Shown here: piece after piece, positions 24,613-40,128 of the stretch
How the letters are laid out: each line of letters starts with the position of its first letter
How positions within the stretch are numbered: position 1 is the first letter of the stretch
Assembly (NCBI GenBank): GCA_024398125.1
Contig: JAKSJO010000015.1
Location: forward strand, 1 to 64,000
Direction of reading: 5' to 3'
Source: Bacteroidales bacterium
GTDB lineage: Bacteria; Bacteroidota; Bacteroidia; Bacteroidales; UBA932
Length of the DNA: 64,000 nucleotides
The notes under the pieces: generated by a model
The model's database searches: none
What the model saw: the letters and a program-made list of their open reading frames with translations, nothing else
What the model was told of the DNA's origin: nothing
Translations under genes and position numbers: made by a program

Positions 24613-25266
24613 ATGATTATTGAGAACAAATCAGTCGTTGCGCTCAGCTATGTGCTTGAGGTTGACGGCAAGGTGGTGGATCACGCTGGATCCGATGCAC
24701 CATTCGACTATATCCACGGAACCTGCATGATCATTCCGAAGCTCGAAGCTACCCTTGACGGTATGTCTGCCGGTCAGGACTTCGAGTGTACCGTCTCGCC
24801 TGAGGAAGGCTATGGCGAGTATGACATGGCAAAGGTTTTCGATGTCCCTATGTCGACGTTCATGTTCAAGGGAGAGCTCCGCAAGGATCTTCTTGAAGTT
24901 GGACGATACATTCCGCTGCTCAACTCGGCAGGCGAGGTTTGCCGCGCCATGGTGGTTGATGTAAAGGAAGATAGCGTGACCTTGGATTTCAATGATCCTA
25001 TGGCTGGAAAGACTCTTGTATTCAGGGGCACCATCCTCAGTGTGCGCGAGGCAACCGAAAAGGAATTGCTTGAAGGCCTTCATGGAGAGTTCCTTCCTCC
25101 ACAGGGTGGCTGCTGCCACGGAGGATGTCATGGCAATGGAGGCTGTCACGGCGACGGCGGATGCTGCCATGGAGGCGAGGAAGGCCATGAGTGTCACTGC
25201 GGTGAAGAAGGTCACGAATGCCATTGCGGTGAAGAGGGCCACGAATGCAGCTGCGGCAAGAATTGA
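24613..25266 (+). CDS. slyD: SlyD-like FKBP peptidyl-prolyl isomerase with metal-binding tail
   Basis: 217 residues. The FKBP half-domain and insert-in-flap arrangement of SlyD are visible: SYVLEVDGKVVDHAG, FDYIHGTCMIIPKLEATLDGM, VSPEEGYGEYD, then the insert domain and LVFRGTILSVREA. The last 55 residues are Gly/Cys/His-rich and include three tandem 9-residue units, GEEGHECHC twice and GEEGHECSC, after a GGCCHGGCHGN-type stretch. SlyD is a cytoplasmic folding helper whose tail binds nickel or zinc and supplies metal to hydrogenase or urease in other bacteria; no such enzymes lie in this window. It probably forms an operon with the glycosyltransferase 6 bases downstream. Confidence 0.92.
   Translation: MIIENKSVVALSYVLEVDGKVVDHAGSDAPFDYIHGTCMIIPKLEATLDGMSAGQDFECTVSPEEGYGEYDMAKVFDVPMSTFMFKGELRKDLLEVGRYIPLLNSAGEVCRAMVVDVKEDSVTLDFNDPMAGKTLVFRGTILSVREATEKELLEGLHGEFLPPQGGCCHGGCHGNGGCHGDGGCCHGGEEGHECHCGEEGHECHCGEEGHECSCGKN
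25174..25254 (+). repeat. Three tandem 27-bp units in the slyD tail
   Basis: Three in-frame units (25174-25200, 25201-25227, 25228-25254) encode GEEGHECHC, GEEGHECHC and GEEGHECSC. Codons differ between units (GGC GAG GAA, GGT GAA GAA, GGT GAA GAG), so the protein repeat is kept rather than recently copied. Confidence 0.85.
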
Positions 25267-25272
25267 TGAAGC

Positions 25273-26334
25273 ATGAGCAAGGCCGCGGTTGTCATACTCA
25301 ACTGGAACACCAGAGTATTGCTTGAACGCTTCCTGCCCGGCCTGGTCAAGAGCCTGAATGGACTGGATGCTGAGCTGATTGTGGCTGATAATGCTTCCAA
25401 GGATGATTCTGTAGCATTTCTTAAAGAGAACTGGCCAGGGGTCAGGCTTATTGAATTAAATGAAAATTACGGCTTCACCGGCGGGTACAATCGTGCACTC
25501 GCGCAGGTTGAAGCCGATTATTATGTCCTTATCAACTCGGACGTCGAAGTCCGGGACGGTTGGCTCGATCCTATGACAGTCTGGATGGATTCACATCCCC
25601 AGTGTGCTGTCTGTGGACCGAAGCTTCATTCATTGAAGTATCCCGACAGCTTTGAATATGCCGGTGCAGCTGGTGGTTTGATTGACAGTTTCGGTTTTCC
25701 TTTCTGCCGCGGACGTGTCATGGGAAGGATTGAAAGGGATTCCGGTCAGTATGATGACAGGAATGCCGGCGTGATGTGGGTGAGCGGGGCATGCATGATG
25801 GTCCGCAGTTGTGTCTGGCACCGGCTCGGTGGACTCGATGAGCGTTTCTTCGCGCACATGGAAGAAATCGATTTCTGCTGGCGTGCACAACTGGCCGGCT
25901 ATGATGTGAATGTCATACCTCAGTCCGTTGTGTGGCATCTCGGCGGCGGTACCTTGCCTCAGGGATCACCGATGAAACTGAAACTGAATTATCGCAACAA
26001 CCTTCTCATGATGAGCAAGAACCTTGCGGGCACTTATATGTGTGCCGGCATCGAGCCTGGAAAGGCCAGACGAAAGTCAGGCCGCAGGCTGCGTCTCCGT
26101 ATGATAATAGACAGGCTGACCGCGATAGCCTATGCGCTGGAATTCAACATCAGGGATGTCAAGGCTGTCCGTGATGCCCACAGGGAGTTCATGACAATAC
26201 GTAGGACCTTGCCTCCTGTGGCCGTTCCGCAAAGGACTGTGCCGGTTGCCGGGATCTATGGGGGCAGCATGATCGTGGCTTCGATGCTGCACCGTGGCAA
26301 AGTTTTTTCTTTTTTCCGGTCAAAAGGTTTCTGA
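25273..26334 (+). CDS. Family 2 glycosyltransferase (rhamnosyltransferase-like)
   Basis: 353 residues. GT-A fold signatures: VVILNWN at the N terminus, VADNASKDDS, ELNENYGFTGGYNRAL, VLINSDVEV (metal-binding NSD), and GLDERFFAHMEEIDFCWRAQLAGY with the catalytic-region Glu-Asp. This order is that of WbbL/rhamnosyl-type transferases that act on lipid-linked glycans at the cytoplasmic face. The C-terminal 100 residues contain hydrophobic and Arg-rich segments that may sit on the membrane. The acceptor is unknown. Co-directional with slyD, 6 bases downstream. Confidence 0.87.
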   Translation: MSKAAVVILNWNTRVLLERFLPGLVKSLNGLDAELIVADNASKDDSVAFLKENWPGVRLIELNENYGFTGGYNRALAQVEADYYVLINSDVEVRDGWLDPMTVWMDSHPQCAVCGPKLHSLKYPDSFEYAGAAGGLIDSFGFPFCRGRVMGRIERDSGQYDDRNAGVMWVSGACMMVRSCVWHRLGGLDERFFAHMEEIDFCWRAQLAGYDVNVIPQSVVWHLGGGTLPQGSPMKLKLNYRNNLLMMSKNLAGTYMCAGIEPGKARRKSGRRLRLRMIIDRLTAIAYALEFNIRDVKAVRDAHREFMTIRRTLPPVAVPQRTVPVAGIYGGSMIVASMLHRGKVFSFFRSKGF

Positions 26335-26406
26335 CCCCTTTTTTCCTAGAGGATCGTCCGATTTTGACGAAAAAACAGTCGAAATGTACGAATCTTCATA
26401 ACTGAT

Positions 26407-26424
26407 GGATGTTTTCAAACATCC
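26407..26424. promoter_or_regulatory. 18-bp palindrome upstream of the lipoprotein/hybrid sensor operon
   Basis: GGATGTTT-TC-AAACATCC, perfect 8-bp arms, centred about 42 bases before the likely transcription start (7-element at 26444). That is the normal position for an activator site or for an operator. Confidence 0.5.
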
Positions 26425-26443
26425 CCATACTGCATTTAATACC

Positions 26444-26451
26444 TATATTTG
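26444..26451 (+). promoter_or_regulatory. -7 element of the lipoprotein/hybrid sensor operon
   Basis: TATATTTG, 20 bases before the ATG at 26472. Confidence 0.65.
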
Positions 26452-26471
26452 TGTAGAGATAACATCTACAC
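26451..26471 (+). promoter_or_regulatory. Inverted repeat directly before the ATG
   Basis: GTGTAGA-GATAACA-TCTACAC, perfect 7-bp arms; the right arm touches the start codon at 26472. As RNA it would hide the start region; as DNA it would be an operator on the transcription start. Confidence 0.5.
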
Positions 26472-27392
26472 ATGAATAAGTTTTTTGCAGTCTTTTCTAT
26501 CGCGTCGCTTTGTTTTCTTTCCTGCTCGACGAATAATTCATTTGTTGAGATGGTCGATGTAGAAGGAGGCACTTTCCTTATGGGGGCGCATAACTCTGAG
26601 CTGGATTGGGCTACGGGGGACGAACTGCCCGCTCACTATGTCAGACTTAGCAACTACAGAATCAGCAAATATGAAATAACCGTCGGACAGTTCAAGGAAT
26701 TCGTCGACGAGACCGGATACGTCACTCTTGCTGAAAGAAAGGATACACTTCAGGACAGGGTGTTCAAGAGCTGGATAGTCGATACCACCGGAGGTGTATC
26801 AAGGCAGGTTCAGGTTGATTCCATAATCTCGTGGCGAAATGGAATGTTTGGCCAGAGATTGACTCCAAAAGACTATGACAAGCCGGTTGCAATGGTCTCC
26901 TTTGATGACTGCAAGGCTTTCTGCCGATGGCTTTCCGACAAAGAAGGTGTTGAATATGACCTTCCGACCGAAGCCGAGTGGGAATTCGCAGCAAGGGGAG
27001 GCAACCTTTCAAAGGATTATTTTGCATCCGGCAGCAACGATGTGGACAAGGTTGCCTGGTATGCGGACAATTCAGGAGGGGACCTGCATCCTGTGGGCAA
27101 GAAGATGGCTAATGAGCTCGGAATTCATGATATGACAGGAAATGTTCGTGAATGGACTCTGGATCATCCTTATTCATATCGTGAATTCATAGGTATCGAC
27201 ACGATGGTGAATCCTGTCCTCCAGCCTAGGACTGGGACTTCTGATGCGCATGTCGGCCGAGGCAGTTCATCCAACCTCACTGTTTCCAGATGCAGGATTT
27301 CATATCGTACTTCTTTTCAGGCCGGCAGGCGTGGCGCTGGACTCGGTTTCAGGATTGTTCAGCGTTTCGAACCATGCAATCCGTACAAATAG
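26472..27392 (+). CDS. SUMF1/FGE-like lipoprotein, catalytic cysteines missing
   Basis: 306 residues. Signal peptide with lipobox FLSC (Cys at 17-18). The rest is a formylglycine-generating-enzyme (SUMF1) fold: DVEGGTFLMGA, YRISKYEITVGQFKEFV, DKPVAMVSFDDCKAFCRWLS, DLPTEAEWEFAARGG, YADNSGGDLHPVGKK, GIHDMTGNVREWT, and GLGFRIV. The strand that carries the two active-site Cys in true FGEs (GGSYxC...YCRRYR) reads GRGSSSNLTVSRCRISYR, so oxidase activity is unlikely. The GldK/PorK lipoproteins of the type IX system are similarly inactive members. Next in order are two hybrid sensors, 27 bases downstream, so it may be an outer-surface accessory or ligand-binding partner of that sensor. Confidence 0.8.
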   Translation: MNKFFAVFSIASLCFLSCSTNNSFVEMVDVEGGTFLMGAHNSELDWATGDELPAHYVRLSNYRISKYEITVGQFKEFVDETGYVTLAERKDTLQDRVFKSWIVDTTGGVSRQVQVDSIISWRNGMFGQRLTPKDYDKPVAMVSFDDCKAFCRWLSDKEGVEYDLPTEAEWEFAARGGNLSKDYFASGSNDVDKVAWYADNSGGDLHPVGKKMANELGIHDMTGNVREWTLDHPYSYREFIGIDTMVNPVLQPRTGTSDAHVGRGSSSNLTVSRCRISYRTSFQAGRRGAGLGFRIVQRFEPCNPYK

Positions 27393-27419
27393 TGTAATTG
27401 AACCTAAAGCTTAAGATAT

Positions 27420-30400
27420 ATGAAAAAGATATTTTGTGCATTGATAATCGCTCTGGCAGTTCCGTCATTGCAACTCCACTCTGAGAATATCAGACCTGGA
27501 GATATCCAGATGAAGACGATATCCATCCTTGATGGATTGAACTCGTCCAGTGTGACATGCATAGCGTCGGATAATGACAGGCATCTTTGGGTCGGAACGG
27601 ATGATGGTTTCAATATCATCAACAACGGGCATGTGTTTCCCTTCATACAGTACATGTCTGAGGAAGATACCCTCAGGGCGAGGGTGGGACACGTCGCAGC
27701 TATGGCCGTTTCTCTGCAGAAAGCTTTGATTGCCGCAGAATTGGGTCTGTTGCAGTTCGACAACAAGACGGGAAGATATCGGGAAATCAGATACAACGGC
27801 AGGCGCATGGATGTGACAGCCATGACGGAATGCGTGAATGGCAGTGATTTTACATATTTATTTGATTCAGCGTCGAACTGCATATTTCAGGCAACCATAT
27901 CCGATGGTGAATTAAGGCTCTTGAGGGATTTTGGTGAGAATGTGTCATATAACTTTGGAAAGATCATCGCGAATCCGGACAAGGACGATATGCTTATTCT
28001 GGCCGATGATGAGAAAGGTGTATACCAAATGTCGATAAGCTCAGGAAAGCTGACAGCCATCGTACCTGAAGGCGATAGGATCGTGGCTAAGAGCTGTATA
28101 CTCGACAAAGAGGAAAGAATATGGGTTTCCAGATTCGGAGAGGGACTTTCATCCTTTTCGCTGGATGGCCATCCTGATGTCATGATGGGGTACACATCCT
28201 CTAATTCCGGGCTTCCAAGCAACTACGTGAACTGCGTGCTGGAACTTTTGGATGGCAATATGGCGGTTTCCACCGATGCCGGTGTCTGCATCATCAATAG
28301 AAGGAACAGGGTCGTAGAATCAGTTACCGATCATGAGGCATGGTTCTCTACAGCTCTCTTTTCACTGTCTCCTCTTGAGATTATCGTGGGAACACGTTTT
28401 AATGGAATCCATGAGCTGCGACGTACATCTCTTCATTTCATCGGTCATGCTCATGATGCATCCGGCTTTTCGTTGCCGGATGAAATGATCATTTCCGCTC
28501 TTGATGGAGGTAATGGAAAGGTTTGGCTGGGAACGGCTGGTGGCGGGCTCTACCGTTTCAATGAAGCAGAACGAAGACTTGATTCATTCGGATCCACTCG
28601 AGGGAATCAGATTACTTCGATATGCAACCTTGACGAGAGAAACCTCCTTGTTGTTTCAAGATTCGAGGGCCTTAAGGTTTTCAATAAGACCGATGCCAGA
28701 TTGGGTTCATATCATCTTGACTGTCTTGATGACTTTAATAAAGGCAGACTGGACTTTGAAAAAGTACTTCTCAGCAATGCCGCGGATGGCTCCATACTGA
28801 TCCTTAACCTTGATGGAAACTGTTGCCGGATCAAAGACGGGAAGAGTACCATGTTCCAGCTTTTCCAGGGGAATTCTGATGAAGTATTCATGAAAGTCTT
28901 CTCTCACAAGTTTACAAATGTACTTGTTGGAAAAAGAAGGGTCTATATCATGGATAACCGTGATGAGCTTTGGGCAAAGACTGTTTTCTCCACAGATGAG
29001 GATATACTCACAGCGGCTATAGATGATGATTGTAACATCTGGTATATAACCCACTCGGCTGTATACAGGTATATCATGTCCACCGGTGAAACCGAACTTG
29101 TCATGCCGCAGAGCCAGGATATGCAATTCGTAGGCATACAGTGTGTCGGTGATCAGGTCTGGTTCTCCGGACGTGACCGATGCCTTTATTGCTATTCGGT
29201 GAAAGATAAGGGTTTCAAGGCCTTTACCGAGGAGGATGGAATCCTGCCTGGAAATGACTTCTCGGATGTTGCTTTCAGAAGTGACGATGCGGTTTATTTC
29301 GCCGGTCTCGAGGGATTGGTCTCAATTGTACTTTCCGAGAACCCTGTTCCACTGCGTTCCCGTGGCTACGGCATTGAATGCCTTACCATGGCAGTCGATA
29401 ATAAAACAGCACGGTTTGAAAACGGACATTATATACTTCCGAATAAATATAACAAGGCTATCCTTGTCCTTTCGGTAGATTCTCAGTCTGCATTTACGCC
29501 GTCGACTTTCCGCTATGAGATAGTTGACAAGTCTGGGCATGTGATTGTGTCTTCGGAGGTAAGCAATCCGGTCCTGTCCATGGGAAGGCTTCCATCCGGA
29601 GCTCATTCCGTACGTGTGTCTTCCTTTGGTGAGAATGGATGGGGAGAATACAGGGAAGTTGCCCGAATCTATCGTACAAATGACCATCTCACAGAATCTC
29701 TTGGCATATTGATCCTGTCCATCATTCTGGTACTGCTCGGACTCTGTTTCCATATCACATTTGTAAAAAATGCAAGGGAGAGAGCTCACATGAGGGAACA
29801 GGTTGAAAAACTGAAGAATTCCAGCAATGACGCTATGGCTGGATTCGTGCAGAACGTCCTTCAGGTTATGGGATTGCAGCGGGCGTCAATCTCCTCCCAG
29901 CTTGAATCCATGCTGAACCGGGGCAAGGATAACGCTGGCATTGACAAGACTATCAAATCTGCTCTTCTCCAGCTATCCAGAACTGATGAATGGCTTGAAA
30001 TGGTCAATACATCATCCGATGGCAAAACCGGACGCAAACCTCATCTTGAATCATTCGCGATTGATGACTGCCTCCGGATTGCCGAACAATTCAAGTCTGT
30101 AAATGGCAGGAATGTCAAGGTTGAGTATGTCCCATCCCCAGAGCCCCAGATGGCCGTTACTGACCGGGAGTCTTTCTTGGTCGCAATAAATACGTTCATT
30201 ATCAATGCATTTATCAATAGGGCCAAGAGCTCGGTCAAAGTTGTTCCATCGACAACGAATCTTGGTTACGTGAGAGTGTCTGTCATTGATGATGGAAACT
30301 CTTATTCAGGAGACTATGATGATCTGTTTTCTTCTTCTGCAGGCTACGTTACCGATGGCTTCTCATCGATGGGACTTGCTGCCGTGAGGACTAGGATCGA

Positions 30401-31412
30401 GTCTGTCGGAGGCAGGGTTTCCGGCTTCAGAAACGTGGATCAGGGTGGCTCGACATTCTATGTGGATGTACCTGTTGCTTCAAGGGAACATGCACCTGTG
30501 CCAAAAACTGCTGAGGAGAAGGATGTGAAGAGAGAGATCCTGACTGCCCCAGAGGGAGAATCGGCTTCTTCCATGCCGGATGTCCCTGAGGTCGGAGATT
30601 TCGAAAACGTTTCGGAGATGCTTGATGTTGACAGCTTCGATACCAAGGGCCAGACATTGCTCATCGTCGACGATGAAGCCGATGTCAGGGATTATCTCTC
30701 AAGTGTATATGCATCAAAATTCAAGGAGATATATCTTGCTTCAGATGGCAAGGAGGGTCTTGAAATAGCGAGAGGAAAGCAGCCTAGCATAATCGTATCC
30801 GACGTGAAGATGCCGAGAATGAACGGATTCGAATTCTGTAAGGCAGTGAAATCCGATATCGACATCTCCCATCTGCCTTTCATCCTCCTTACCTCTCTGG
30901 CAGAGTCCAAGAGCCAGGAGATCGGATATAAGATGGGTGCGGACGTCTTCATTCCGAAGCCGTTTGATGTAAAGATGCTCTATAATGCAATCCAGACGCA
31001 GCTGAGAAACAGATATGAGATCAAGAAACGCTATTTCTCTTCTGCTCTGCCGGAGATTACCGAGGAACAGACTTTCAGTGCGGCCGATGAAACGTTCGTA
31101 TTGAAGCTTAACAAGTTCATTAATGACAATATCGGAAATCCTGACCTGAACATTGACATGATACTCAGCGAAATGTGTGTATCAAGGTCAACCCTGTTCA
31201 ACAAGATGAACAGTATCATCGGAGTTTCTGCTGCCAGGTACATCAAGAACATCCGCATTGAGAGGGCAAAGAAGCTTCTTGCAAAGACTTCGATGACCAT
31301 CTTTGAAGTTGCGTCCGAGGTCGGCTTCACGGAAAGCCAGTACTTCAGCACCGTGTTCAAGCAGGAGACAGGTCAGACTCCATCACAGTATCGTGCCCAG
31401 GCTAACAGATAA
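27420..31412 (+). CDS. Hybrid two-component system regulator, pseudokinase with full AraC output
   Basis: 1330 residues. Signal peptide (1-22), a periplasmic two-component-propeller domain with repeats such as HLWVGTDDGFNIINN and VWLGTAGGGLYRF, a Y_Y_Y-type module near 690-755, and one TM helix at 761-783. After the TM no H-box is present (the region reads NSSNDAMAGFVQNVLQVMG), and the ATPase lid is degenerate: the G1 box is DDGNSYSG and the G2 region SSMGLAAV. The receiver is intact: VDDEADV, phospho-acceptor Asp1128 in SDVKMPRMNG, the Thr and the Lys in PKPFDV. The AraC domain from about 1225 is complete with both HTH (LNIDMILSEMCVSRSTLFNKM; IFEVASEVGFTESQYFSTVF). So it can be phosphorylated and bind DNA, but probably cannot phosphorylate itself. 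Confidence 0.85.
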   Translation: MKKIFCALIIALAVPSLQLHSENIRPGDIQMKTISILDGLNSSSVTCIASDNDRHLWVGTDDGFNIINNGHVFPFIQYMSEEDTLRARVGHVAAMAVSLQKALIAAELGLLQFDNKTGRYREIRYNGRRMDVTAMTECVNGSDFTYLFDSASNCIFQATISDGELRLLRDFGENVSYNFGKIIANPDKDDMLILADDEKGVYQMSISSGKLTAIVPEGDRIVAKSCILDKEERIWVSRFGEGLSSFSLDGHPDVMMGYTSSNSGLPSNYVNCVLELLDGNMAVSTDAGVCIINRRNRVVESVTDHEAWFSTALFSLSPLEIIVGTRFNGIHELRRTSLHFIGHAHDASGFSLPDEMIISALDGGNGKVWLGTAGGGLYRFNEAERRLDSFGSTRGNQITSICNLDERNLLVVSRFEGLKVFNKTDARLGSYHLDCLDDFNKGRLDFEKVLLSNAADGSILILNLDGNCCRIKDGKSTMFQLFQGNSDEVFMKVFSHKFTNVLVGKRRVYIMDNRDELWAKTVFSTDEDILTAAIDDDCNIWYITHSAVYRYIMSTGETELVMPQSQDMQFVGIQCVGDQVWFSGRDRCLYCYSVKDKGFKAFTEEDGILPGNDFSDVAFRSDDAVYFAGLEGLVSIVLSENPVPLRSRGYGIECLTMAVDNKTARFENGHYILPNKYNKAILVLSVDSQSAFTPSTFRYEIVDKSGHVIVSSEVSNPVLSMGRLPSGAHSVRVSSFGENGWGEYREVARIYRTNDHLTESLGILILSIILVLLGLCFHITFVKNARERAHMREQVEKLKNSSNDAMAGFVQNVLQVMGLQRASISSQLESMLNRGKDNAGIDKTIKSALLQLSRTDEWLEMVNTSSDGKTGRKPHLESFAIDDCLRIAEQFKSVNGRNVKVEYVPSPEPQMAVTDRESFLVAINTFIINAFINRAKSSVKVVPSTTNLGYVRVSVIDDGNSYSGDYDDLFSSSAGYVTDGFSSMGLAAVRTRIESVGGRVSGFRNVDQGGSTFYVDVPVASREHAPVPKTAEEKDVKREILTAPEGESASSMPDVPEVGDFENVSEMLDVDSFDTKGQTLLIVDDEADVRDYLSSVYASKFKEIYLASDGKEGLEIARGKQPSIIVSDVKMPRMNGFEFCKAVKSDIDISHLPFILLTSLAESKSQEIGYKMGADVFIPKPFDVKMLYNAIQTQLRNRYEIKKRYFSSALPEITEEQTFSAADETFVLKLNKFINDNIGNPDLNIDMILSEMCVSRSTLFNKMNSIIGVSAARYIKNIRIERAKKLLAKTSMTIFEVASEVGFTESQYFSTVFKQETGQTPSQYRAQANR

Positions 31413-31415
31413 GAC

Positions 31416-34400
31416 ATGAGAAGAATAGGTGTATTCATAATCGAGCTTTTGTTTCTGCTTGTCCCACTTGCATCCAGTGCGAGTGAACTTGCTTTCCGAA
31501 GATTTCTTCCAGACCAGGAAGTACGGTGTATGGTGCTTGACGACCATAGCCGCCTCTGGGTCGGTACCAACAATGGCTTCTCTATCATAAACAACTCGAT
31601 TGTAAGAGATTTCGTCATTTCCGATCTTACTGCTGGACAGCTTTCGGACCTTGCGGTGTCACAGATTGTACCATCCGGAAAGCAGGCATTGGTGGCAACG
31701 GCAAGTTCTCTGTTCCTATTCGACATAGAGACTCAGGGCTTGGATGAGATTCTTTTTGACGGCAGGAAGATTTCGGTTGACGCGTCTGCTTTTTTCTCTG
31801 ACAAGGCATATCTATATTCCATCGCAGACCAGGCTCTTTATGCGTACTCTTATGATTCCACGACTCTGGAGATCTGCTATCAGTTTGACAGGCATGATCG
31901 ATATCAGTTCCACAGCATCTCTGCGGGTATCTATAACTACCTGCTTCTTGCAGACAACAACCGTGGATTGTTCAAGTATGATGTGTATAAGGGCACGATA
32001 CAGCATCTGGATGACCTGCCTGATAATATCATCGCTTCGGCGGTCGCGATAAACAGCGATAAGTCATATCTATGGGTACCTGGCCCATTCGGTATCAACT
32101 GCTACAAAATAAACGGGGAAGATCTCAGCCTCATCTCTACGGTCTCACGCGAGTCAGGAGTCCTCAGTACAAATGAGACCCAGGATATCGTGGCGTTGTC
32201 AGACTATGCTTTCGTCGTTGCGCAGGGATATGGAATGACTCGTGTAAATACAAAAGGCGAGGTGCTCCAGAGAGTTAATGGCAGTTTCACCAGCAATCTT
32301 GTAAGCATCGCCGCCCAGCGTTTTTCTCAATCCTTCATAGGAGGAACTTCATACAACGGTCTTATCGTTGCCAAGGATCATATCATAAAGGAGCTGTCAA
32401 GTACCGCCATTTCAAATTCTACACTGACGAGCAGTACGGTGACGTCTTATCTTGATACTCACGACGGACTCGTCTGGCTTGGTACAGCTGGAAATGGAAT
32501 CAACTGCTATGACCAGAATACTCATGAAGTCATGAAGTATCCATTGCCTTCTCTCGGTACAATTTCTTCAATGGTATCCTATGGTGATGGGTATATCCTC
32601 TGTGTCGTCAATCATCGCGACATTGTCTTGTTCTCAAAGAAAAGCGGCAAGGTGGAACCTATCTCGGTTCCTGCGCTTGAGATGATACTTTCGGACATCG
32701 ATACTGAAAGCCAGATGATGGTGGCTGATGCCGGAAACGGGTCGATCTTCGTATTGAATGTAAATGGTGCCAATTACAGATTCACCCCTGGGGTGAACAG
32801 CATTGAATCCTTTGTGCTCGGCACCCGCGAGCATCCGGATCCTGTGGCGGGAATCGAGGTGGGCAATCATTCCACGTTCATTCACAGCCAAAATGCCGTG
32901 TATGAGCTGGACAATGTCAGCCTTATGGTACGTAGACTGTACCATGACGATGAACGCACGGTACACGATATCAGCTGTATGGAGGGTGAATGCGTGATAG
33001 CAGCCCTCTCCGATGCCCTTATTCGGATTGATACCGGGACGAGAAAAGTCGAGGATATTACTGAAATCCTTAGTAACGAGAAAGCTTTGGGCATCAGTTT
33101 CGATGCGAATGGGACCCTTTGGACTATCACCGAGAATAGTTTTCTCATGAGTGTCGATCTTGCAAGCGGCAAGAGGAGATATTTTCCGGAGGCCGGCTAT
33201 GCACAGTATTCCGGTTTCTTTTCATATGCGACTAAGGAGAACAACTTGTTTTTCTCCAGATCGTCAGGTGTGCTTGCCATAAATGTCGATGAACTTTCTG
33301 AACAGAATAAAAGCGAGGTGAGTCCACGAATTGCTCTGGAGCGAATCAAGTTAAACGGAGAGGTATTCCAGGTCCCTCTAGGAAACACTAGAATCGAGCT
33401 GCCGGCAAAAAATAATTTCTTTGAGTTCGATGTTCTTGTCATCTCGGATGATCCATTGTCTGAAGTCCCTATCAATCTTGTCCTTTACAAGAAGGACAAG
33501 GCCATAGGTTATCAATATGGAAGCCTGACGAATTATCTTATTTCCAGATTCGAGCCTGGAACATACCAGATCAAGGTTTCGATGCTTACCTCATTCGGAT
33601 GGACTGATGAAGAGACGATATTGGAGGTTCATGTACATAACCCATGGTTTCTGACATGGTGGGCAGCTTTGCTGGCATTGATACTTCTGTCTTCTGGCTT
33701 TATGGCTGAGTATGTCATCATGAAGGAAAGAAGAAAAAGAAGCCTTGAAAAGACTGCCAGTCAGATTGAGCACCAGAAAAATGAAGAGAAGATCTCTCTC
33801 ATGGCGAACCTCGCGCATGACCTTAGATCGCCGCTTTCTCTTGTCCAGAACATGATCAATTCCGTCATTGATGACAGAAACGATGATGTATTCGTGTCAA
33901 AGACACTTGGAGGAACCGTACCTCAGATTACACGTATGACTGACATGATCAACATGATTCTCAGCATCCAGAAAATGGATACTACAAGTGAGGAGGTAAG
34001 ATATGAGGTCATCAACCTGAATAAATGGATATCCGACAGGCTTGAGTATGAGTATAAGCCTAAGTGCCTTGCCAAGGGTCTTAAACTGGAATTCATCCCA
34101 GAGAAGTACCTGAGTGAGATCCACATGGATATCTCCAAGATATATGCTTGCTTCCAGAATCTTATGACGAATGCCATAAAGTTCAGCGAAGAGGGAACCA
34201 TTACTGTTTCTACCCAGATCGTGAACAACTATATACGAATCAGTGTCGCTGATGAGGGATGTGGCTTTGATGGTCCAGCTGAGGATCTGTTCAGAAAGTT
34301 TTATAGACAGAACACAGCGGTGAGTGGATATGGTCTTGGACTGGCTTATGTGAAGACTCTGGTCGAGAAGCTCGGTGGTGTCGTATCAGCTTATCACAAC

Positions 34401-35114
34401 ATCTCCGGCGTGGGATCCACATTCTACTTCGATGTGCCGCTGATCAATGTTGAAGGTTCTTCAACGGCAGTCGAAAGGGAACGCAACATAGAATACGATA
34501 GCCGTCATGACATCCTCCTGGTTGTGGATGACCAGAAAGATATCAGGGATTACGTGACATCCGTCTATAAGGACCAGTTCAGAAAGATTCTCACCGCACC
34601 CGATGGTCTCCAGGCTCTTCAGGTCATAACGGAAAAGCATCCGGATCTCATCATCAGCGATCTTATCATGCCGAACATGGATGGATTCGAACTTTGCAAG
34701 CAGGTCAAGTCGACGACGGAGATCAGCCATATCCCATTTGTACTGTTCTCGACCAAGGAAGATGCCTTGAGCCAGCATATCAGCTACAAGCTCGGTCCGG
34801 ATGACTGTATTGCCAAGCCTTTCGATGTGAAGCTGCTTACAGATATCATCAGGTTCCAGCTGAGGAGCCGCAGACGTTTCAAGGATTCGCTGAAATCCAA
34901 GGAGATTTCAAGGATATCAAAGGATATGCTCATCAGTAAGGCTGACGAGGACTTCATCTCACGGCTCGATGCTTTCATCGTACGTGAAGATGCGACCTTG
35001 GAAAGCTGCGCCCGCCACATGGGAATGTTTGCGAAGGATTTCGAATCCAAGCTTGAGGCTCTTACAGGCATGAGTGTGAATGACTACATCCAGATGGTCA
35101 TTTTGAATGATTGA
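31416..35114 (+). CDS. Hybrid two-component system sensor, active kinase with truncated AraC domain
   Basis: 1232 residues, starting 3 bases after the previous stop. Signal peptide, then a periplasmic propeller clearly paralogous to the previous protein (RLWVGTNNGFSIINN against HLWVGTDDGFNIINN). TM helix at about 744-767. Intact H-box with His801 in LAHDLRSPLS, N-box Asn919 (NLMTNAIKFSEEG), G1 DEGCGFDG and G2 GYGLGLAYV. The receiver has VVDDQKD, Asp1082 in SDLIMPNMDG and KPFDV. After it only the first half of the AraC domain remains (ATLESCARHMGMFAKDFE and EALTGMSVNDYIQM); the stop comes where the second HTH should start. It therefore looks like a kinase unable to bind DNA in the normal way. 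Confidence 0.85.
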   Translation: MRRIGVFIIELLFLLVPLASSASELAFRRFLPDQEVRCMVLDDHSRLWVGTNNGFSIINNSIVRDFVISDLTAGQLSDLAVSQIVPSGKQALVATASSLFLFDIETQGLDEILFDGRKISVDASAFFSDKAYLYSIADQALYAYSYDSTTLEICYQFDRHDRYQFHSISAGIYNYLLLADNNRGLFKYDVYKGTIQHLDDLPDNIIASAVAINSDKSYLWVPGPFGINCYKINGEDLSLISTVSRESGVLSTNETQDIVALSDYAFVVAQGYGMTRVNTKGEVLQRVNGSFTSNLVSIAAQRFSQSFIGGTSYNGLIVAKDHIIKELSSTAISNSTLTSSTVTSYLDTHDGLVWLGTAGNGINCYDQNTHEVMKYPLPSLGTISSMVSYGDGYILCVVNHRDIVLFSKKSGKVEPISVPALEMILSDIDTESQMMVADAGNGSIFVLNVNGANYRFTPGVNSIESFVLGTREHPDPVAGIEVGNHSTFIHSQNAVYELDNVSLMVRRLYHDDERTVHDISCMEGECVIAALSDALIRIDTGTRKVEDITEILSNEKALGISFDANGTLWTITENSFLMSVDLASGKRRYFPEAGYAQYSGFFSYATKENNLFFSRSSGVLAINVDELSEQNKSEVSPRIALERIKLNGEVFQVPLGNTRIELPAKNNFFEFDVLVISDDPLSEVPINLVLYKKDKAIGYQYGSLTNYLISRFEPGTYQIKVSMLTSFGWTDEETILEVHVHNPWFLTWWAALLALILLSSGFMAEYVIMKERRKRSLEKTASQIEHQKNEEKISLMANLAHDLRSPLSLVQNMINSVIDDRNDDVFVSKTLGGTVPQITRMTDMINMILSIQKMDTTSEEVRYEVINLNKWISDRLEYEYKPKCLAKGLKLEFIPEKYLSEIHMDISKIYACFQNLMTNAIKFSEEGTITVSTQIVNNYIRISVADEGCGFDGPAEDLFRKFYRQNTAVSGYGLGLAYVKTLVEKLGGVVSAYHNISGVGSTFYFDVPLINVEGSSTAVERERNIEYDSRHDILLVVDDQKDIRDYVTSVYKDQFRKILTAPDGLQALQVITEKHPDLIISDLIMPNMDGFELCKQVKSTTEISHIPFVLFSTKEDALSQHISYKLGPDDCIAKPFDVKLLTDIIRFQLRSRRRFKDSLKSKEISRISKDMLISKADEDFISRLDAFIVREDATLESCARHMGMFAKDFESKLEALTGMSVNDYIQMVILND

Positions 35115-35124
35115 CGGAAAGAAG

Positions 35125-35132
35125 TATATTTG
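35125..35132 (+). promoter_or_regulatory. -7 element of trkA
   Basis: TATATTTG, 20 bases before the trkA ATG and 10 bases after the sensor stop codon; no terminator lies between. Confidence 0.6.
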
Positions 35133-35152
35133 CACTTTACGTCAATCAGTAT

Positions 35153-36547
35153 ATGAGGATAGTCATAGAGGGAGCAGGCGAGATCGGATCACATCTCGCC
35201 AAGATGCTCAGCCGTGAGGATAACGAGATAACGGTCATCGACACCGACTCCCAGAGGCTTGCACGCCTTACTGGAGGAGCCGATGTTGCAGTTGTCCAGG
35301 GGCATCCTTCATCCATCAAGACACTGAAGGCTGCCGGAGTTCCGACAGCCGACCTGTTCATCGCGGTCAATCCTTTCGTTCCACAGGACGTCAATATCGT
35401 CAGTGCAATCCTTGCATACAAGCTGGGTGCTAAGAAGGTGTCTGCCCGTGTGGATGACGAGGAATTCCTCGAGCCGGACAACAAGCTCATGTTCAAGGAA
35501 CTTGGTCTGGACCTCATGTTCTTCCCAGAACGAATTGCCGCCGAGGAAATCGCTGATCAGCTCAAGTACACGGCTTCTTCGGAGTCAATGAACTTCGCCA
35601 ATGGCAAGCTGGGTATAGCTGTTTTCAAGATCGAAGATGATTCTCCGCTTCTGGACATGACGGTCAAGGAGTTTGCCGAGACTGCCGGAGAGAATGAGCT
35701 CTTCCGCATCATTGCGATCACACGAAACGACGAGACCATCATCCCTAAGTACAATACCCGATTCAAATACTGCGACATGGTGTTTACGATTTCGCGTCGC
35801 GAAGGATCGGAGATGCTCATGCGCCGTCTTGGCAAGAACAACATAACCGTACGCCGACTCATGATAGTCGGAGGCTCGATGATGGCAGAACAGGTTGCCA
35901 AGTCGCTTTCGGGCAGCAATATTTCGATAAAGATCATCGAAAACGACAGAGCCAGATGTCTGGAGCTTCGTGAGCGTCTGGATGACAATGTCGCGATTGT
36001 CTGCGGTGATGGACGCAATACAGACCTGCTCGTAGAGGAACTCATTACCGAGTATGACGCATTCGCGGCTCTGACCGGCAGTGACGAGACCAATGTGCTG
36101 GCATGTGCAGCTGCAAAGCGCTTCGGTGTAGACCAGACCATTGCCGACGTTGAGCATAAGGAGTACATCCACCTTGCCGAGGAGATAGGTGTTGATACGG
36201 TAATCAACAAGAAGCTTCTTACCGCGGGCAAGATCTTCAAGTTCACGCTGAGCGGCAAGGCTCGTTCCATAAGATACATGAGCGGCACGAACGCGGAGAT
36301 TCTCGAATACATAGTTGCCCCAGGAAGTGCAATCACCAAGGGAAGGCTCATGGATATAGGTTTCCCGAGCGGAGCCGTCATCGGTGGCGTGATCCGCGGC
36401 AGCGACGCATTCATCGCGGTAGGATCGACCCGTATAGAGAAATACGACAGGGTAGTTGTCTTCGCAATGCCGGAGACAGCACGCGAAGTCGACAGATTCT
36501 TCAAGAAAGATAATGGCGAGTTACCTTCAGATAGAGAACATATCTAA
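35153..36547 (+). CDS. trkA: Trk potassium uptake regulatory subunit TrkA
   Basis: 464 residues. Two tandem RCK units. The first starts with MRIVIEGAGEIGSHLAKML (Rossmann GxGxxG at 7-12) and has the acidic strand end VIDTDSQRL; the second starts with LMIVGGSMMAEQVAKSL and KIIENDRARC. Each is followed by a TrkA_C-type domain (ELFRIIAITRND; GAVIGGVIRGSDAFIAVGSTR). TrkA is the cytoplasmic NAD(H)/ATP-responsive gate of the Trk K+ channel. The membrane partner trkH, often adjacent in Bacteroidetes, is not in this window. Start set at ATG 35153, after the promoter. The 3' end overlaps the ABC-F gene by 35 bases. Confidence 0.9.
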   Translation: MRIVIEGAGEIGSHLAKMLSREDNEITVIDTDSQRLARLTGGADVAVVQGHPSSIKTLKAAGVPTADLFIAVNPFVPQDVNIVSAILAYKLGAKKVSARVDDEEFLEPDNKLMFKELGLDLMFFPERIAAEEIADQLKYTASSESMNFANGKLGIAVFKIEDDSPLLDMTVKEFAETAGENELFRIIAITRNDETIIPKYNTRFKYCDMVFTISRREGSEMLMRRLGKNNITVRRLMIVGGSMMAEQVAKSLSGSNISIKIIENDRARCLELRERLDDNVAIVCGDGRNTDLLVEELITEYDAFAALTGSDETNVLACAAAKRFGVDQTIADVEHKEYIHLAEEIGVDTVINKKLLTAGKIFKFTLSGKARSIRYMSGTNAEILEYIVAPGSAITKGRLMDIGFPSGAVIGGVIRGSDAFIAVGSTRIEKYDRVVVFAMPETAREVDRFFKKDNGELPSDREHI

Positions 36548-38306
36548 GTCCTACGGACCGAAGATACTGTTCGAAAACATAGGATTCAACATCAACGAGG
36601 GCGACAAGATCGCCCTTATTGCGCCCAACGGCACCGGCAAGACAACGCTCATGCGTATCTTGGCCGGCAAGGACAAGTCCGATTCAGGTGGACGCATAAC
36701 ATTCCTCAAACAGATCCGTATCGCGTTCCTTGAGCAGGAATACGATTATGACCCTGACAGCACCATCTTCAACCAGATCATGTCTTCCAGCACCGAGTAT
36801 ACTGCAGGGTTGGATGATGACGGCCTGTTCGAATATGAATTGCGTGTCCAGCGTATCCTGACCGACTTCGACATGAACCGTGACCAGAAGATGTCCGAAC
36901 TCTCGGGTGGCGAGGTCAAGCGTGTCGCGCTTACCCGTATGCTGGCGACGGAGGCAGACTTCCTTATCATGGACGAGCCTACCAATCATCTGGACATCGA
37001 CGCGATTGAATACCTTGAATCAGCCCTGAAGCGTTCACGCTGTACGCTTTTCATGGTGACGCATGACCGCTACTTCCTGGACCGCGTCTGCAACACTGTC
37101 ATGGAGATGGATCATGGCGCGATATACGTCTACAAGGGAGACTACGCCAACTATCTCGAGAAGAGACAGGAGAGAATCGACAACTACAACGCCGAGACTG
37201 ACAAGGTCCGCAACATACTCCGTCGCGAGCTGGAATGGATACATGCCACTCCTTGCGCCCGTTCGGGCAAGGCCAAGTACCGAATCAATGCCTTCCATGA
37301 TCTCAAGGACAGAGCCGAACAGGTCTACAGCAGCAAGCAGATCAGCATTGCACCAGATCTTGGTGTCGCATCCAGACTCGGTACCAAAATCATCAACTGC
37401 AAGGATGTCTGCTTCAGTTATGACGGAAAGTGCTATCTCGACCATTTCACATATAACTTCCAAAGATATGAGAAGGTCGGAATAGTTGGCCGCAACGGAG
37501 TGGGCAAGAGTACCTTCATCAATCTCCTTATGGGAGCGGATACCGGCACCGGCATACTCAGCGGAGTCATCGACAGGGGAGAGTCCCTCAAGATAGGCTA
37601 CTATAACCAGAAGGGAATCACTTTCGATGAGGACCAGACTGTGCTTGAGACAGTCAATGACACCCGTCTCCTGAACCAGTTCCTCTTCCCTCATGACATG
37701 CTTAACAACAAGATTGCACGTCTGTCCGGAGGAGAGAAACGCAGGCTCTATCTTCTTACCATCCTCATGCAGCAGCCGAACCTGCTGATACTTGACGAGC
37801 CTACCAATGACCTTGATATCGTGACCCTGAACATCCTTGAGGAATATCTTCTGGGTTATCAGGGATCGCTTATCATCGTATCCCATGACCGTCATTTCCT
37901 GGACCGCCTGGTGGATCATCTCTTCGTGTTCTGCGGAGAAGGCATAGTCAAGGATTTCATCGGAGGCTACTCTGAATACCGTTCGTTCATCAAAGACTAC
38001 GAGGCGCAGCAGAAGAAGGATGCCAGAGAAGCAGAGGTACGCGAGAAAGCAGCTGCCGCAAAGGTTGCCCCTGTGGTTCAGGCTCCGGCAAAGAAGCGCA
38101 AGCTCAGCTGGAAGGAACAGCGGGAATTGGAGACCCTCGAGTCCGTCATGGCCTCACTGGGAGCGGAGAAAGAAGAACTGGAAGCAAAGATGGCTGCAGG
38201 CGACATGGATTATGCCGAGGTCCAGAAGGTGACAGACCGCTATGCGGAGGTAAAGGATCTTCTGGACGAGAAGGAACTTCGTTGGCTGGAGCTTTCCGTA
38301 GACTGA
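36513..38306 (+). CDS. ABC-F family ATPase (Uup-like)
   Basis: 597 residues. Two complete ATPase domains in one chain with no TM helices: Walker A APNGTGKTT and GRNGVGKST, signatures LSGGEVKRVAL and LSGGEKRRLYL, Walker B DEPTNHLD and DEPTNDLD. The linker between them (YASNYLEKRQER... ELEWIHATPCARSGKAK) and a C-terminal coiled coil (about 510-597, KKRKLSWKEQRELETLES) are typical of Uup/EttA-type factors. These bind the ribosomal E site or branched DNA; a coiled-coil C terminus favours Uup. The ATG at 36513 lies within trkA; the upstream in-frame part is trkA sequence read in another frame. Confidence 0.9.
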   Translation: MASYLQIENISKSYGPKILFENIGFNINEGDKIALIAPNGTGKTTLMRILAGKDKSDSGGRITFLKQIRIAFLEQEYDYDPDSTIFNQIMSSSTEYTAGLDDDGLFEYELRVQRILTDFDMNRDQKMSELSGGEVKRVALTRMLATEADFLIMDEPTNHLDIDAIEYLESALKRSRCTLFMVTHDRYFLDRVCNTVMEMDHGAIYVYKGDYANYLEKRQERIDNYNAETDKVRNILRRELEWIHATPCARSGKAKYRINAFHDLKDRAEQVYSSKQISIAPDLGVASRLGTKIINCKDVCFSYDGKCYLDHFTYNFQRYEKVGIVGRNGVGKSTFINLLMGADTGTGILSGVIDRGESLKIGYYNQKGITFDEDQTVLETVNDTRLLNQFLFPHDMLNNKIARLSGGEKRRLYLLTILMQQPNLLILDEPTNDLDIVTLNILEEYLLGYQGSLIIVSHDRHFLDRLVDHLFVFCGEGIVKDFIGGYSEYRSFIKDYEAQQKKDAREAEVREKAAAAKVAPVVQAPAKKRKLSWKEQRELETLESVMASLGAEKEELEAKMAAGDMDYAEVQKVTDRYAEVKDLLDEKELRWLELSVD

Positions 38307-38384
38307 CATTATGGCAGAGCTTCGCTATTGGCAGACAATTTGAGTCTATGGATTGAAGCAAATCAGAAAAAAAGAAAACATCAT

Positions 38385-38951
38385 ATGGCAGAGAAAGAAG
38401 AAAAGAAGCAGGCACAGGCAGAAGAGAAGCTGGTGAATGCAAAAGAGAGCAAGAAGGAAGCGAAGAAGAGTGATGAGCTTCAGGCAAAAATCGGCGAACT
38501 CGAGTCAAAGATCGAGGAATCCGAGAAGAAACTGTCGGAAGCTAAGGATGACTATATCCGTCTCATGGCGGAGTTTGAGACCTTCCGCCGCAGAAGTGCC
38601 GAGGACAGATTCAATCTTGTCGCAAACGCTTCTGCAGAGACTATCAAGGGTCTTCTTCCCGTTCTTGACGATTGTGAGAGGGCTCTTGCAATCCTTGCCA
38701 ACGGTGCAGACGAAGCTGCAAAGGAGGGCACGAACCTTATCTATAATAAGTTGATGGAGTATCTCAAGACCAAGGGACTGACCGTGATCGAAGCCAAGGA
38801 CTGCAAGTTCGACGTCGATTTCCATGAGGCAGTTGCCCAGTTCCCTGTTCCTGAGGAGGACCGAAAGGGCATCGTCATTGACGTTGTGCAGACAGGATAC
38901 CTTCTCAATGGAAAGGTCCTCAGATACGCAAAGGTTGTAGTTGGAGCATAA
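38385..38951 (+). CDS. grpE: Nucleotide exchange factor GrpE
   Basis: 188 residues from ATG 38385. A charged Lys/Glu-rich helix (1-75) leads into the GrpE core: DDYIRLMAEFETFRRRSAED, LLPVLDDCERAL, EYLKTKGLTVIEAK, DVDFHEAVAQFPVP and VIDVVQTGYLLNGKVLRYAKVVVG. It exchanges ADP for ATP on DnaK. It lies one base before dnaJ; dnaK itself is elsewhere. I saw no CIRCE element upstream. Confidence 0.95.
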   Translation: MAEKEEKKQAQAEEKLVNAKESKKEAKKSDELQAKIGELESKIEESEKKLSEAKDDYIRLMAEFETFRRRSAEDRFNLVANASAETIKGLLPVLDDCERALAILANGADEAAKEGTNLIYNKLMEYLKTKGLTVIEAKDCKFDVDFHEAVAQFPVPEEDRKGIVIDVVQTGYLLNGKVLRYAKVVVGA

Positions 38952-38952
38952 T

Positions 38953-40128
38953 ATGGCAGACAAGAGAGATTACTACGAGGTCCTTGGCCTTGCCAAGGGC
39001 GCGTCAGAAAGCGATATCAAGAGCGCCTACAGAAAGGCTGCCATCAAGTGGCATCCTGACAAGTGGGTCAATGGTACCGACGCAGAAAAGAAGAACGCGG
39101 AAGAAAAGTTCAAGGAAGCATCAGAGGCATATTCAGTCCTCAGTGATCCTGACAAGAAAGCACGTTACGACCAGTATGGCTTTGCTGGTGTGGATGGTGC
39201 AGCCGGCCCTGACTTCAGCCAGGGTTTCGGTAACCTGAACGATATCCTCAACAGCATCTTTGGAGGCGGTTTCGGAGGCTTCAGCGGTTTTGGAGGCTTC
39301 GACTTCGGTGGAGGCAGCAGCCAGAACCAGCAGCGTGTATATCGTGGCCGCGACATCCGTACCAGTGTGACCCTTACCCTTGAAGAGATTGCAAACGGTG
39401 TCGAGAAGGAGGTCAGCATAGAGCGCAGCCGTCCATGCCCGGACTGCAATGGCCAGGGAACCAAGAACAGCTCGGATGTCAAGACCTGTCCTCAGTGTCA
39501 GGGTCGTGGCCAGGTACAGCACGTTGTGAACTCTCTCTTCGGCCGTACCATGACATACAGCACCTGTCCTCAGTGCAATGGAGAAGGCAAGGTTATCAAC
39601 AATCCATGCCGCAGCTGCAGCGGAACCGGCCTTGTCCGCAAGCGCGAGACCGTAAAGGTCAAGATTCCTGCCGGTGTCGAGGCAGGCATGCAGCTGACCG
39701 TCCGCGGCGAAGGCCATGCTGCTCCGCACAATGGTGTAAACGGAGATCTTCTCGTTGTCATAAAGGAAGTCGACCATCCTCAGCTCAAGCGTGATGGCGA
39801 CAACCTCTTTTACTCCCAGATCATCTCTGTGATGGATGCCATGCTCGGCTGTGAGATTACCGTTCCATGTATCGACGGCTCGTACAAGGTCAAGGTTGAT
39901 GCCGGAACCCAGTCGGGGACTGTCCTCAAACTCAGAGGAAAGGGACTTCCATCCGTGAATGGATATGGCAAGGGTGACCTTTATGTGAAGATTCTCGTCT
40001 GGATACCTCGCAAGCTCTCCCGTGCCGAGAAAGAGAAGATGGAGTCAATGAGACAGTCCGAAAGCTTCAAGCCGGATCTTTCCCGTGACGACAAGGCTCT
40101 CTTCGACAAGGAGAAGAAGATTTTCTAG
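38953..40128 (+). CDS. dnaJ: Chaperone DnaJ
   Basis: 391 residues. J domain with HPD at 34-36, a Gly/Phe-rich linker (GGGFGGFSGFGGFDFGGG), four CxxCxGxG zinc-binding motifs (CPDCNGQG, CPQCQGRG, CPQCNGEG, CRSCSGTG) and the C-terminal substrate-binding domains (GDLLVVIKEVDHP, GKGDLYVKI). Co-chaperone of DnaK. Immediately follows grpE with no gap. Confidence 0.97.
   Translation: MADKRDYYEVLGLAKGASESDIKSAYRKAAIKWHPDKWVNGTDAEKKNAEEKFKEASEAYSVLSDPDKKARYDQYGFAGVDGAAGPDFSQGFGNLNDILNSIFGGGFGGFSGFGGFDFGGGSSQNQQRVYRGRDIRTSVTLTLEEIANGVEKEVSIERSRPCPDCNGQGTKNSSDVKTCPQCQGRGQVQHVVNSLFGRTMTYSTCPQCNGEGKVINNPCRSCSGTGLVRKRETVKVKIPAGVEAGMQLTVRGEGHAAPHNGVNGDLLVVIKEVDHPQLKRDGDNLFYSQIISVMDAMLGCEITVPCIDGSYKVKVDAGTQSGTVLKLRGKGLPSVNGYGKGDLYVKILVWIPRKLSRAEKEKMESMRQSESFKPDLSRDDKALFDKEKKIF

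Follow-up and report, generated by a model that had tools for sequence, protein, structure and literature searches.

Hybrid two-component systems (HTCSs) tether a kinase and its regulator in a single chain, an arrangement under which partner specificity is relaxed and the signalling unit is the homodimer (PMC11253607, in part). In HTCSs, a contact between the receiver and the AraC domain, S/CHIP-DK, represses DNA binding without phosphorylation (Gao et al. 2024; PMC11253607, in part), and one member, BT4236, has been named as suggesting a phosphorylation-independent mechanism (PMC11253607, in part). Heteromeric kinase pairs are also known, DivL/CckA among them (PMC9491836, in part). Here we describe two adjacent HTCS-like genes, P1 and P2, in a 64,000-nucleotide stretch of DNA from a Bacteroidales bacterium (contig JAKSJO010000015.1, positions 1 to 64,000; hereafter the window). 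Their complementary losses suggest that they are the two chains of a split HTCS, in which P2 would be the kinase and would signal through the receiver and AraC domain of P1; we put the probability of this reading at roughly 0.58.

Two adjacent HTCS-like chains carry complementary losses

Positions 26472-35114 of the window hold three genes on the plus strand, encoding a lipoprotein with an FGE-sulfatase domain (306 residues), P1 (1330 residues) and P2 (1232 residues), with intergenic gaps of 27 and 3 bases. On re-reading, coordinates, strand and gaps are those given in the original prediction, a reading of the bare sequence that preceded this analysis. Features of the three proteins are collected in Table 1.

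In P1, Pfam matches to Reg_prop (27.7 bits, cut-off 20.4), Response_reg and HTH_18 are all above cut-off, HATPase_c falls under it (20.5 vs 26.4 bits), and no HisKA match was returned. Alignment to other HTCSs places Gln815 at the position of the phospho-His. The ATP site is changed by Lys to Ile in the N-box and Ser for the second Gly of G1, and two Gly of G2 are replaced by Phe and Ser. The receiver residues Asp1084, Asp1085, Asp1128 and Lys1180 are intact. P1 had been predicted to lack the phospho-His and to keep Asp1128 and a complete AraC domain, and this is borne out; no H-box was found in it. The companion claim, that P1 lacks both Gly boxes, went too far: G1 and G2 are damaged, but G1 retains its Asp-x-Gly, G2 its last Gly and the N-box its Asn.

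P2 shows the converse pattern. Reg_prop (29.0 bits, cut-off 20.4), HATPase_c and Response_reg are above cut-off and HisKA is slightly below (24.9 vs 26.9 bits); Pfam gives no helix-turn-helix (HTH) match, and the second HTH is absent. His801, the N, G1 and G2 residues and Asp1082 are all retained in the alignment and the protein ends midway through its AraC domain, as had been predicted. Only 38 bases separate the P2 stop from the ATG of trkA, too short a space to encode the second AraC half, which speaks against a frameshift that would restore it. The Y_Y_Y domain, which in HTCSs precedes the membrane helix, was not matched by Pfam in P1 or P2.

AlphaFold models show the DHp region of P1 as two long helices (pLDDT blocks about 46-81; CA blocks about 51-85) and the half AraC domain of P2 as four helices (pLDDT blocks about 79-91). 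Since these are single-chain models (pTM 0.35 for P1 and 0.41 for P2), they carry no information on pairing.

Table 1. Positions in the window of the lipoprotein, P1 and P2 and of their domains
Feature	Position	Strand	Basis
FGE-sulfatase-domain lipoprotein, 306 aa, first gene of a lineage-specific cassette	26472..27392	+	Pfam PF03781, 172.6 bits
P1, HTCS-like; dead kinase, intact receiver, complete AraC domain (putative regulator chain)	27420..31412	+	Pfam and residue alignment
P1 linker and DHp region without phospho-His (Gln815 at 29862-29864)	29775..30074	+	Alignment; 29% identity to G235
P1 degenerate ATP-binding (CA) domain	30075..30494	+	Motif losses; HATPase_c below cut-off; 64% identity to G235
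P1 receiver, phospho-acceptor Asp1128 at 30801-30803	30651..31019	+	Response_reg 71.8 bits; 89% identity to G235
P1 complete AraC-type DNA-binding domain	31125..31409	+	HTH_18 71.6 bits; 89% identity to G235
P2, HTCS-like; intact kinase and receiver, truncated AraC domain (putative kinase chain)	31416..35114	+	Pfam and residue alignment
P2 DHp and CA, phospho-His801 at 33816-33818	33741..34451	+	HisKA 24.9 (cut-off 26.9), HATPase_c 70.2 bits
P2 receiver, Asp1082 at 34659-34661	34509..34880	+	Response_reg 75.6 bits; 86% identity to G235
P2 half AraC, first HTH only, with receiver-lock contacts Asp1177 and Lys1212	34944..35111	+	Alignment

Conservation in a second species follows the split

P1 was searched against 300 genomes of the genus and P2 against 400. 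Within each genome, the searches with P1 and P2 scored no more than the 2 to 11 best candidates, and the samples for genus, family and order, each a subset of a larger group, overlap in part, so that frequencies given here and below are rough. One other genome, G235, contains full-length orthologues (P1 67% and P2 73% identical); the next-best matches in both searches are 24-28% identical over long matches. Gene order in G235 is identical to that of the window (GT2-FGE-P1-P2-trkA-ABCF-grpE-dnaJ), the P1-P2 gap is again 3 bases, P2 has the same C-terminal end, and P1 has Arg at the phospho-His position; its P2 (P2g) scores 20.0 bits for Y_Y_Y against a cut-off of 26.6. At 20 other trkA loci of the same genus, GT2 adjoins trkA without the cassette in 18, and the remaining two are a contig end (L167) and a locus with no GT2 match (L176). 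Given its absence between GT2 and trkA in 18 of 20 loci and its intact order in G235, FGE-P1-P2 is, to judge from gene order, a lineage-specific insertion kept as a unit.

Synonymous divergence (dS) between the window and G235 is near saturation (2.50 for P1, 2.28 for P2, infinite in some domains), and nonsynonymous divergence (dN) and identity were therefore used instead. In P1, the receiver and AraC domain are 89% identical (dN 0.064 and 0.070), the CA domain 64%, and the DHp, its least conserved domain, 29% (dN 0.69). In P2, identity is 83% in the DHp, 90% in the CA domain, 86% in the receiver and 66% in the half AraC. Constraint is strong on the intact parts of each chain and relaxed on the broken ones; conservation follows the split.

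Across 24613-40128 of the window, dS relative to G235 is 2.3-2.6 for FGE, P1 and P2 and 0.8-1.4 for the flanks, which may reflect a separate history or codon bias in the flanks. At the P2 terminus, 35101-35132 resembles a Bacteroidota promoter (TTTTG, 19 bases, TATATTTG) and may serve trkA. This stretch is kept in G235 and covers the P2 stop and the codons just before it, so that codon identity between the two species may here have another cause.

The same losses recur in pairs from another genus

A search of 199 genomes of the family matched four, the window's own included. One of them, G521, belongs to a different genus and carries two divergent pairs within 16 kb (L186). In pair A, P2A (1239 residues; His present, AraC cut after the first HTH) precedes P1A (1319 residues; no His, full AraC); in pair B, P2B (1252 residues; His present, AraC cut) precedes P1B (1387 residues; no His, full AraC). 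P2 thus stands before P1, in contrast to the order seen in the window, and in both pairs the two frames overlap. By Pfam, HTH_18 is found in P1A, P1B and the P1 of G235 (P1g) and in none of P2A, P2B and P2g; HATPase_c is above cut-off in P2A, P2B and P2g and also in P1B (40.3 bits), slightly below in P1g and without a match in P1A; HisKA exceeds its cut-off in P2A only, with P2g slightly below. P1B keeps the N-box, G1 and most G2 residues in the alignment, and its His is gone. P2g, P2A and P2B stop in the same AraC region as P2.

The pairs of G521 are only 22-32% identical to that of the window, which indicates that the split is old. Identical reciprocal losses are found in all four pairs detected, in three genomes and two genera, and because all four share them the losses are more than chance. 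Both proteins of the window have lost conserved motifs, as duplicates decaying without a joint function would, but their open frames are long, the retained domains are strongly conserved in two species, and the same losses recur at 22-32% identity in G521. Pseudogene decay was rejected on these grounds, and decaying duplicates without joint function are highly improbable.

Directly downstream of pair A, positions 1244-2338 of L186 encode a 364-residue, exported-looking protein, a candidate target or partner. It has no NCBIfam match, and its only Pfam match is far below cut-off. No SusC or SusD genes were recognised by eye beside the four pairs within the stretches read.

Trees point to one ancestral duplication

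Trees were built from the ectodomains, with the domains that define the trait excluded. P1-type chains (no phospho-His, full AraC) form a clade with support 95 (90 with other rows), P2-type chains (His present, AraC cut) a clade with 87 (82), and the two are joined at 99. With the receiver added, the values rise to 97/95 for P1-types, 94/92 for P2-types and 100/99 for the two as sister clades. Both chains fall among HTCSs. A separate duplication for each pair was rejected by approximately unbiased (AU) tests (p-AU 0.0135 for P1A+P2A, 0.0119 for P1B+P2B and 0.0018 for P1+P2 of the window and G235), and recent local duplication of each pair was rejected with it. The receiver-only tree is poorly resolved and places P1A outside both groups; branches in the P1/P2 trees are long, and pull between them is possible.

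By these trees, one HTCS gene was duplicated once in an ancestor, after which the phospho-His disappeared from the P1 lineage and the second AraC HTH from the P2 lineage. As read from the assemblies, the resulting pairs remained adjacent in two genera, with a gap of 3 bases or with overlapping frames. The proposal that functions were divided after a duplication and that the genes are inherited as a unit thus fits four pairs in three genomes and two genera as well as the trees. Its starting point fares less well: the near-identical propeller motifs from which P1 and P2 had been called paralogues are generic Reg_prop and on their own indicate no special kinship, and it is the trees that make the two chains sisters.

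The two losses among 80 HTCS-like proteins

We assembled 80 HTCS-like proteins, 75 of at least 850 residues with the receiver and first HTH aligned plus five shorter ones (L036, L037, L038, L039 and L048); these were gathered by similarity to P1 and P2 and are not a random sample. The phospho-His is present in 74 of the 80, and the six without it are the four P1-types and two proteins of the same genus as the window, G133 (Asn) and G193. The second HTH is present in 75; it is lacking in the four P2-types and in L107, a fragment cut off by the end of its contig.

G133 (L221, 7450-11334) is an HTCS that stands alone; it has Asn at the phospho-His position, a degraded ATP site and a complete AraC domain. 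Its neighbours, identified by eye, are sulfatase-like and SusC/SusD-like genes, and it lies in a different clade from the pairs; on its sequence it is an independent kinase-dead HTCS. G193 (L225, 2440-6156) is a solitary HTCS of 1238 residues in which the H-box stretch is missing in frame and the CA domain, receiver and AraC look intact. This absence is either a real loss or an assembly fault; the gene is incomplete in L036 and full length in L225.

Profile searches matched 77 of 299 genomes of the family, in which the loci of the six best beyond the window's own and G521 were inspected, and five other genomes over threshold among 295 of the order, all of which were inspected. No further split pair was present among these loci, and no P1-type or P2-type chain stands alone among the matches inspected; the two other His-less HTCSs, G133 and G193, do.

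Several candidates were set aside. Fourteen relative loci examined as possible pairs (G029, G032, G343, G589, G561, G065, G253, G588, G501, G930, G805, G455 twice and G896) are all single complete HTCSs with the His, and SusC-like genes were seen by eye in 10 of the 14 stretches. Alignment shows a His, within variant motifs of which HDIRTSL is one, in GTDB matches that a motif script had scored in large numbers as lacking the H-box. Contig C367 of G520, a genome from another family of the order, has three Y_Y_Y matches on the minus strand, at 5124, 8710 and 12366, about 3.6 kb apart. Among the matches listed in a Y_Y_Y survey of 119 genomes, this contig appears as a tandem of three HTCS-sized frames.

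Proposed signalling between the chains

The residues of the receiver lock bear on how the chains might act. P2 has SHIP-D-K and P1 has SHLP-D-K, with Leu for Ile, and all four P1-types keep S-H-(L/I)-P, the Asp and the Lys. As this lock is linked to phosphorylation-dependent DNA binding (PMC11253607, in part), an outside kinase would be expected for P1-types, and the neighbouring P2 is a kinase with no output. Given that the split recurs in another genus, P1 and P2 probably work together, with phosphorylation of the P1 receiver by P2 in trans as the most likely route, and the two chains may pair physically. Both would sit in the inner membrane with their propellers in the periplasm. P2, alone or with P1, would sense the ligand and autophosphorylate on His801, and the phosphoryl group would pass to Asp1128 of P1, freeing the P1 AraC domain from the receiver to bind DNA. 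The P2 receiver may compete for the phosphoryl group or tune the signal, and the ruined kinase of P1 may be retained as a structural or docking part. SHIP, Asp and Lys also persist in all four P2-types in spite of the missing second HTH. This suggests a half AraC retained as a receiver cap, one that would not serve DNA binding.

Partner matching was assessed by comparing true with mismatched P1/P2 pairs, counting the window and G235 as one, which gives three independent pairs. Among 1265 overlapping windows along the alignment, the largest excess of true over mismatched pairing lies at receiver beta1-alpha1. Against the five alternative pairings, the true one comes out first for alpha1 and for beta5-alpha5, and fourth or fifth of six in six other regions (propellers, Y_Y_Y region, DHp, CA, the remainder of the receiver and first HTH); ectodomains show no co-variation by pair (rank 5 of 6). 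Helix alpha1 and the beta5-alpha5 loop form the kinase-docking side of a receiver. Matching of this surface would fit two receivers reading one kinase, and we treat it as a lead only.

Contact between the chains could instead run through the DHp, as in FasB/FasC, with the CA domain of one chain phosphorylating the His of the other. This account overlaps with that of a split HTCS and differs in where the chains meet. FasB and FasC heterodimerise and FasC is a proposed pseudokinase (PMC12675982, in part); P1B, with its HATPase_c score of 40.3 bits, mostly kept ATP-site residues and no His, has a CA domain that could serve P2B. P1 and P1A, however, have lost key ATP-site residues, the DHp pairing ranks 5 of 6, and the DHp of P1, at 29% identity between two species, is its least conserved domain, which speaks against a complex built around a DHp heterodimer. 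We consider this arrangement unlikely.

Several observations weigh against the split-HTCS reading. The receiver-surface test draws on three independent pairs, its best possible p is 1/6 for each region, alpha1 had been spotted by eye before the scan, and a propeller window ranks second (0.84 vs 0.85). For P2B, Pfam returns no HisKA, though its His aligns. In pair A the acidic pair of the P1A receiver is replaced by Asn-Ser and the Lys of the P2A receiver by Arg, which makes ordinary phosphotransfer doubtful; this pair may signal without it. The solitary G133 and G193, finally, indicate that loss of the His does not always bring a partner.

The solitary G133 and G193 and the missing acidic pair of P1A would also suit a P1 that is independent of phosphorylation, with ligand alone driving its AraC domain and P2 acting as a separate kinase for another regulator or for itself; to G133 and G193 can be added BT4236, likewise His-less and without a partner (PMC11253607, in part). 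We regard this as possible but doubtful. P1, P1g and P1B keep the receiver residues for phosphorylation, all four P1-types keep the lock with its Asp, needless in a phosphorylation-free regulator, P2 itself lacks an output domain, and the pair is co-inherited. G133 and G193 have Glu for the lock Asp, but so do their His-bearing relatives L017 and L032, and the contrast between P1-types and the solitary proteins is therefore weak.

P2 might also restrain P1, as a dominant partner or as a phosphatase that titrates or dephosphorylates it, by analogy with the action of RetS on GacS. A half AraC without its second HTH would suit such a role, and inhibitory heteromers are known, RetS/GacS being an example (PMC12675982 and PMC9491836, both in part). 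P1, however, offers no kinase on which such restraint could act, and another phosphodonor would be required; we think this quite improbable.

Returning to the split HTCS, we lean slightly towards a broader proposition: that there is a standing class of obligate two-chain HTCSs, in which a single ancestral duplication parted the kinase of a one-chain receptor from its DNA-binding function, the two resulting chains then diverging in matched pairs whose receiver surfaces are specific to the partner, and the half AraC serving solely as a receiver cap.

The FGE-like lipoprotein and upstream signals

The solved relatives of the lipoprotein by sequence include FGE (formylglycine-generating enzyme), PvdO and PorK/GldK. 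The active site of FGE contains a pair of Cys residues. A single Cys lies in the aligned stretch of the lipoprotein, which is probably not a formylglycine-generating enzyme; one Cys would be expected if a protein of this fold had a binding or structural role. The protein is 82% identical to its G235 copy. At a threshold of 1e-40 it matched 1 of 200 genomes of the genus, the window's own only; as the G235 copy matches at 8.6e-176, G235 cannot have been in that sample. In G521, an FGE-like lipoprotein 47% identical to that of the window, with a run of unread bases within its frame, is encoded on contig C44 (L224, 10113-11279), after acetate kinase-like and phosphotransacylase-like genes (by eye). 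The lipoprotein is thus present in all three genomes with split pairs, yet does not always lie beside them; the search covered other-genus genomes only where pairs occur. Its proposed role as an extracytoplasmic partner of P1 and P2 is weakened by the location of the G521 homologue on a different contig from the pairs.

Upstream of the lipoprotein gene, 26335-26471 contains TATATTTG, retained in G235, and a perfect palindrome, GGATGTTTTCAAACATCC, which is degenerate in G235 and is a possible operator.

Comparison with known systems

The original prediction knew of no described system of this type. That holds for HTCSs among the largely open-access papers listed by our searches, none of which describes a split pair in its title or in the opening of its abstract, and fails for heteromeric kinase/pseudokinase pairs, of which FasB/FasC has been published. 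If a class of obligate two-chain HTCSs exists, it would undo, in nature, the fusion by which HTCSs are defined. An untethered lineage permits testing whether partner specificity re-evolves once the tether is lost, and bears on how paralogous receptors avoid or need heteromers and on the role of a receiver without its DNA-binding half.

With the HTCSs of Bacteroidota the pair shares the Reg_prop ectodomain, membrane helix, HisKA/HATPase_c, receiver, AraC domain and S/CHIP-DK lock. It differs in splitting these functions over two co-inherited chains, whereas published HTCSs, in the cited part of PMC11253607, are one chain acting as a homodimer. BT4236 of B. thetaiotaomicron resembles P1 in being an HTCS with Gln for the phospho-His, but it is a single HTCS with the non-consensus lock CSIP-EK (PMC11253607, in part), unlike the P1-types.

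FasB/FasC-FasA of group A Streptococcus likewise has two sensor-kinase-like proteins in one operon, one a proposed pseudokinase, and one regulator (PMC12675982, in part), and the motif losses of P1 leave one partner without an intact kinase, as in a pair of that type. The Fas proteins, in contrast, are not hybrids, have six-transmembrane sensors and a separate response regulator, and it is the proposed pseudokinase that supplies the His (PMC12675982, in part). In RetS/GacS and HrrS/ChrS, too, a kinase or pseudokinase interacts with a second kinase (PMC9491836, in part), but there one is modulated by the other or the two have a separate regulator in common, with no division of one HTCS. Set against these systems, the pair in the window is a set of HTCS modules wired like a heteromeric two-component pair.

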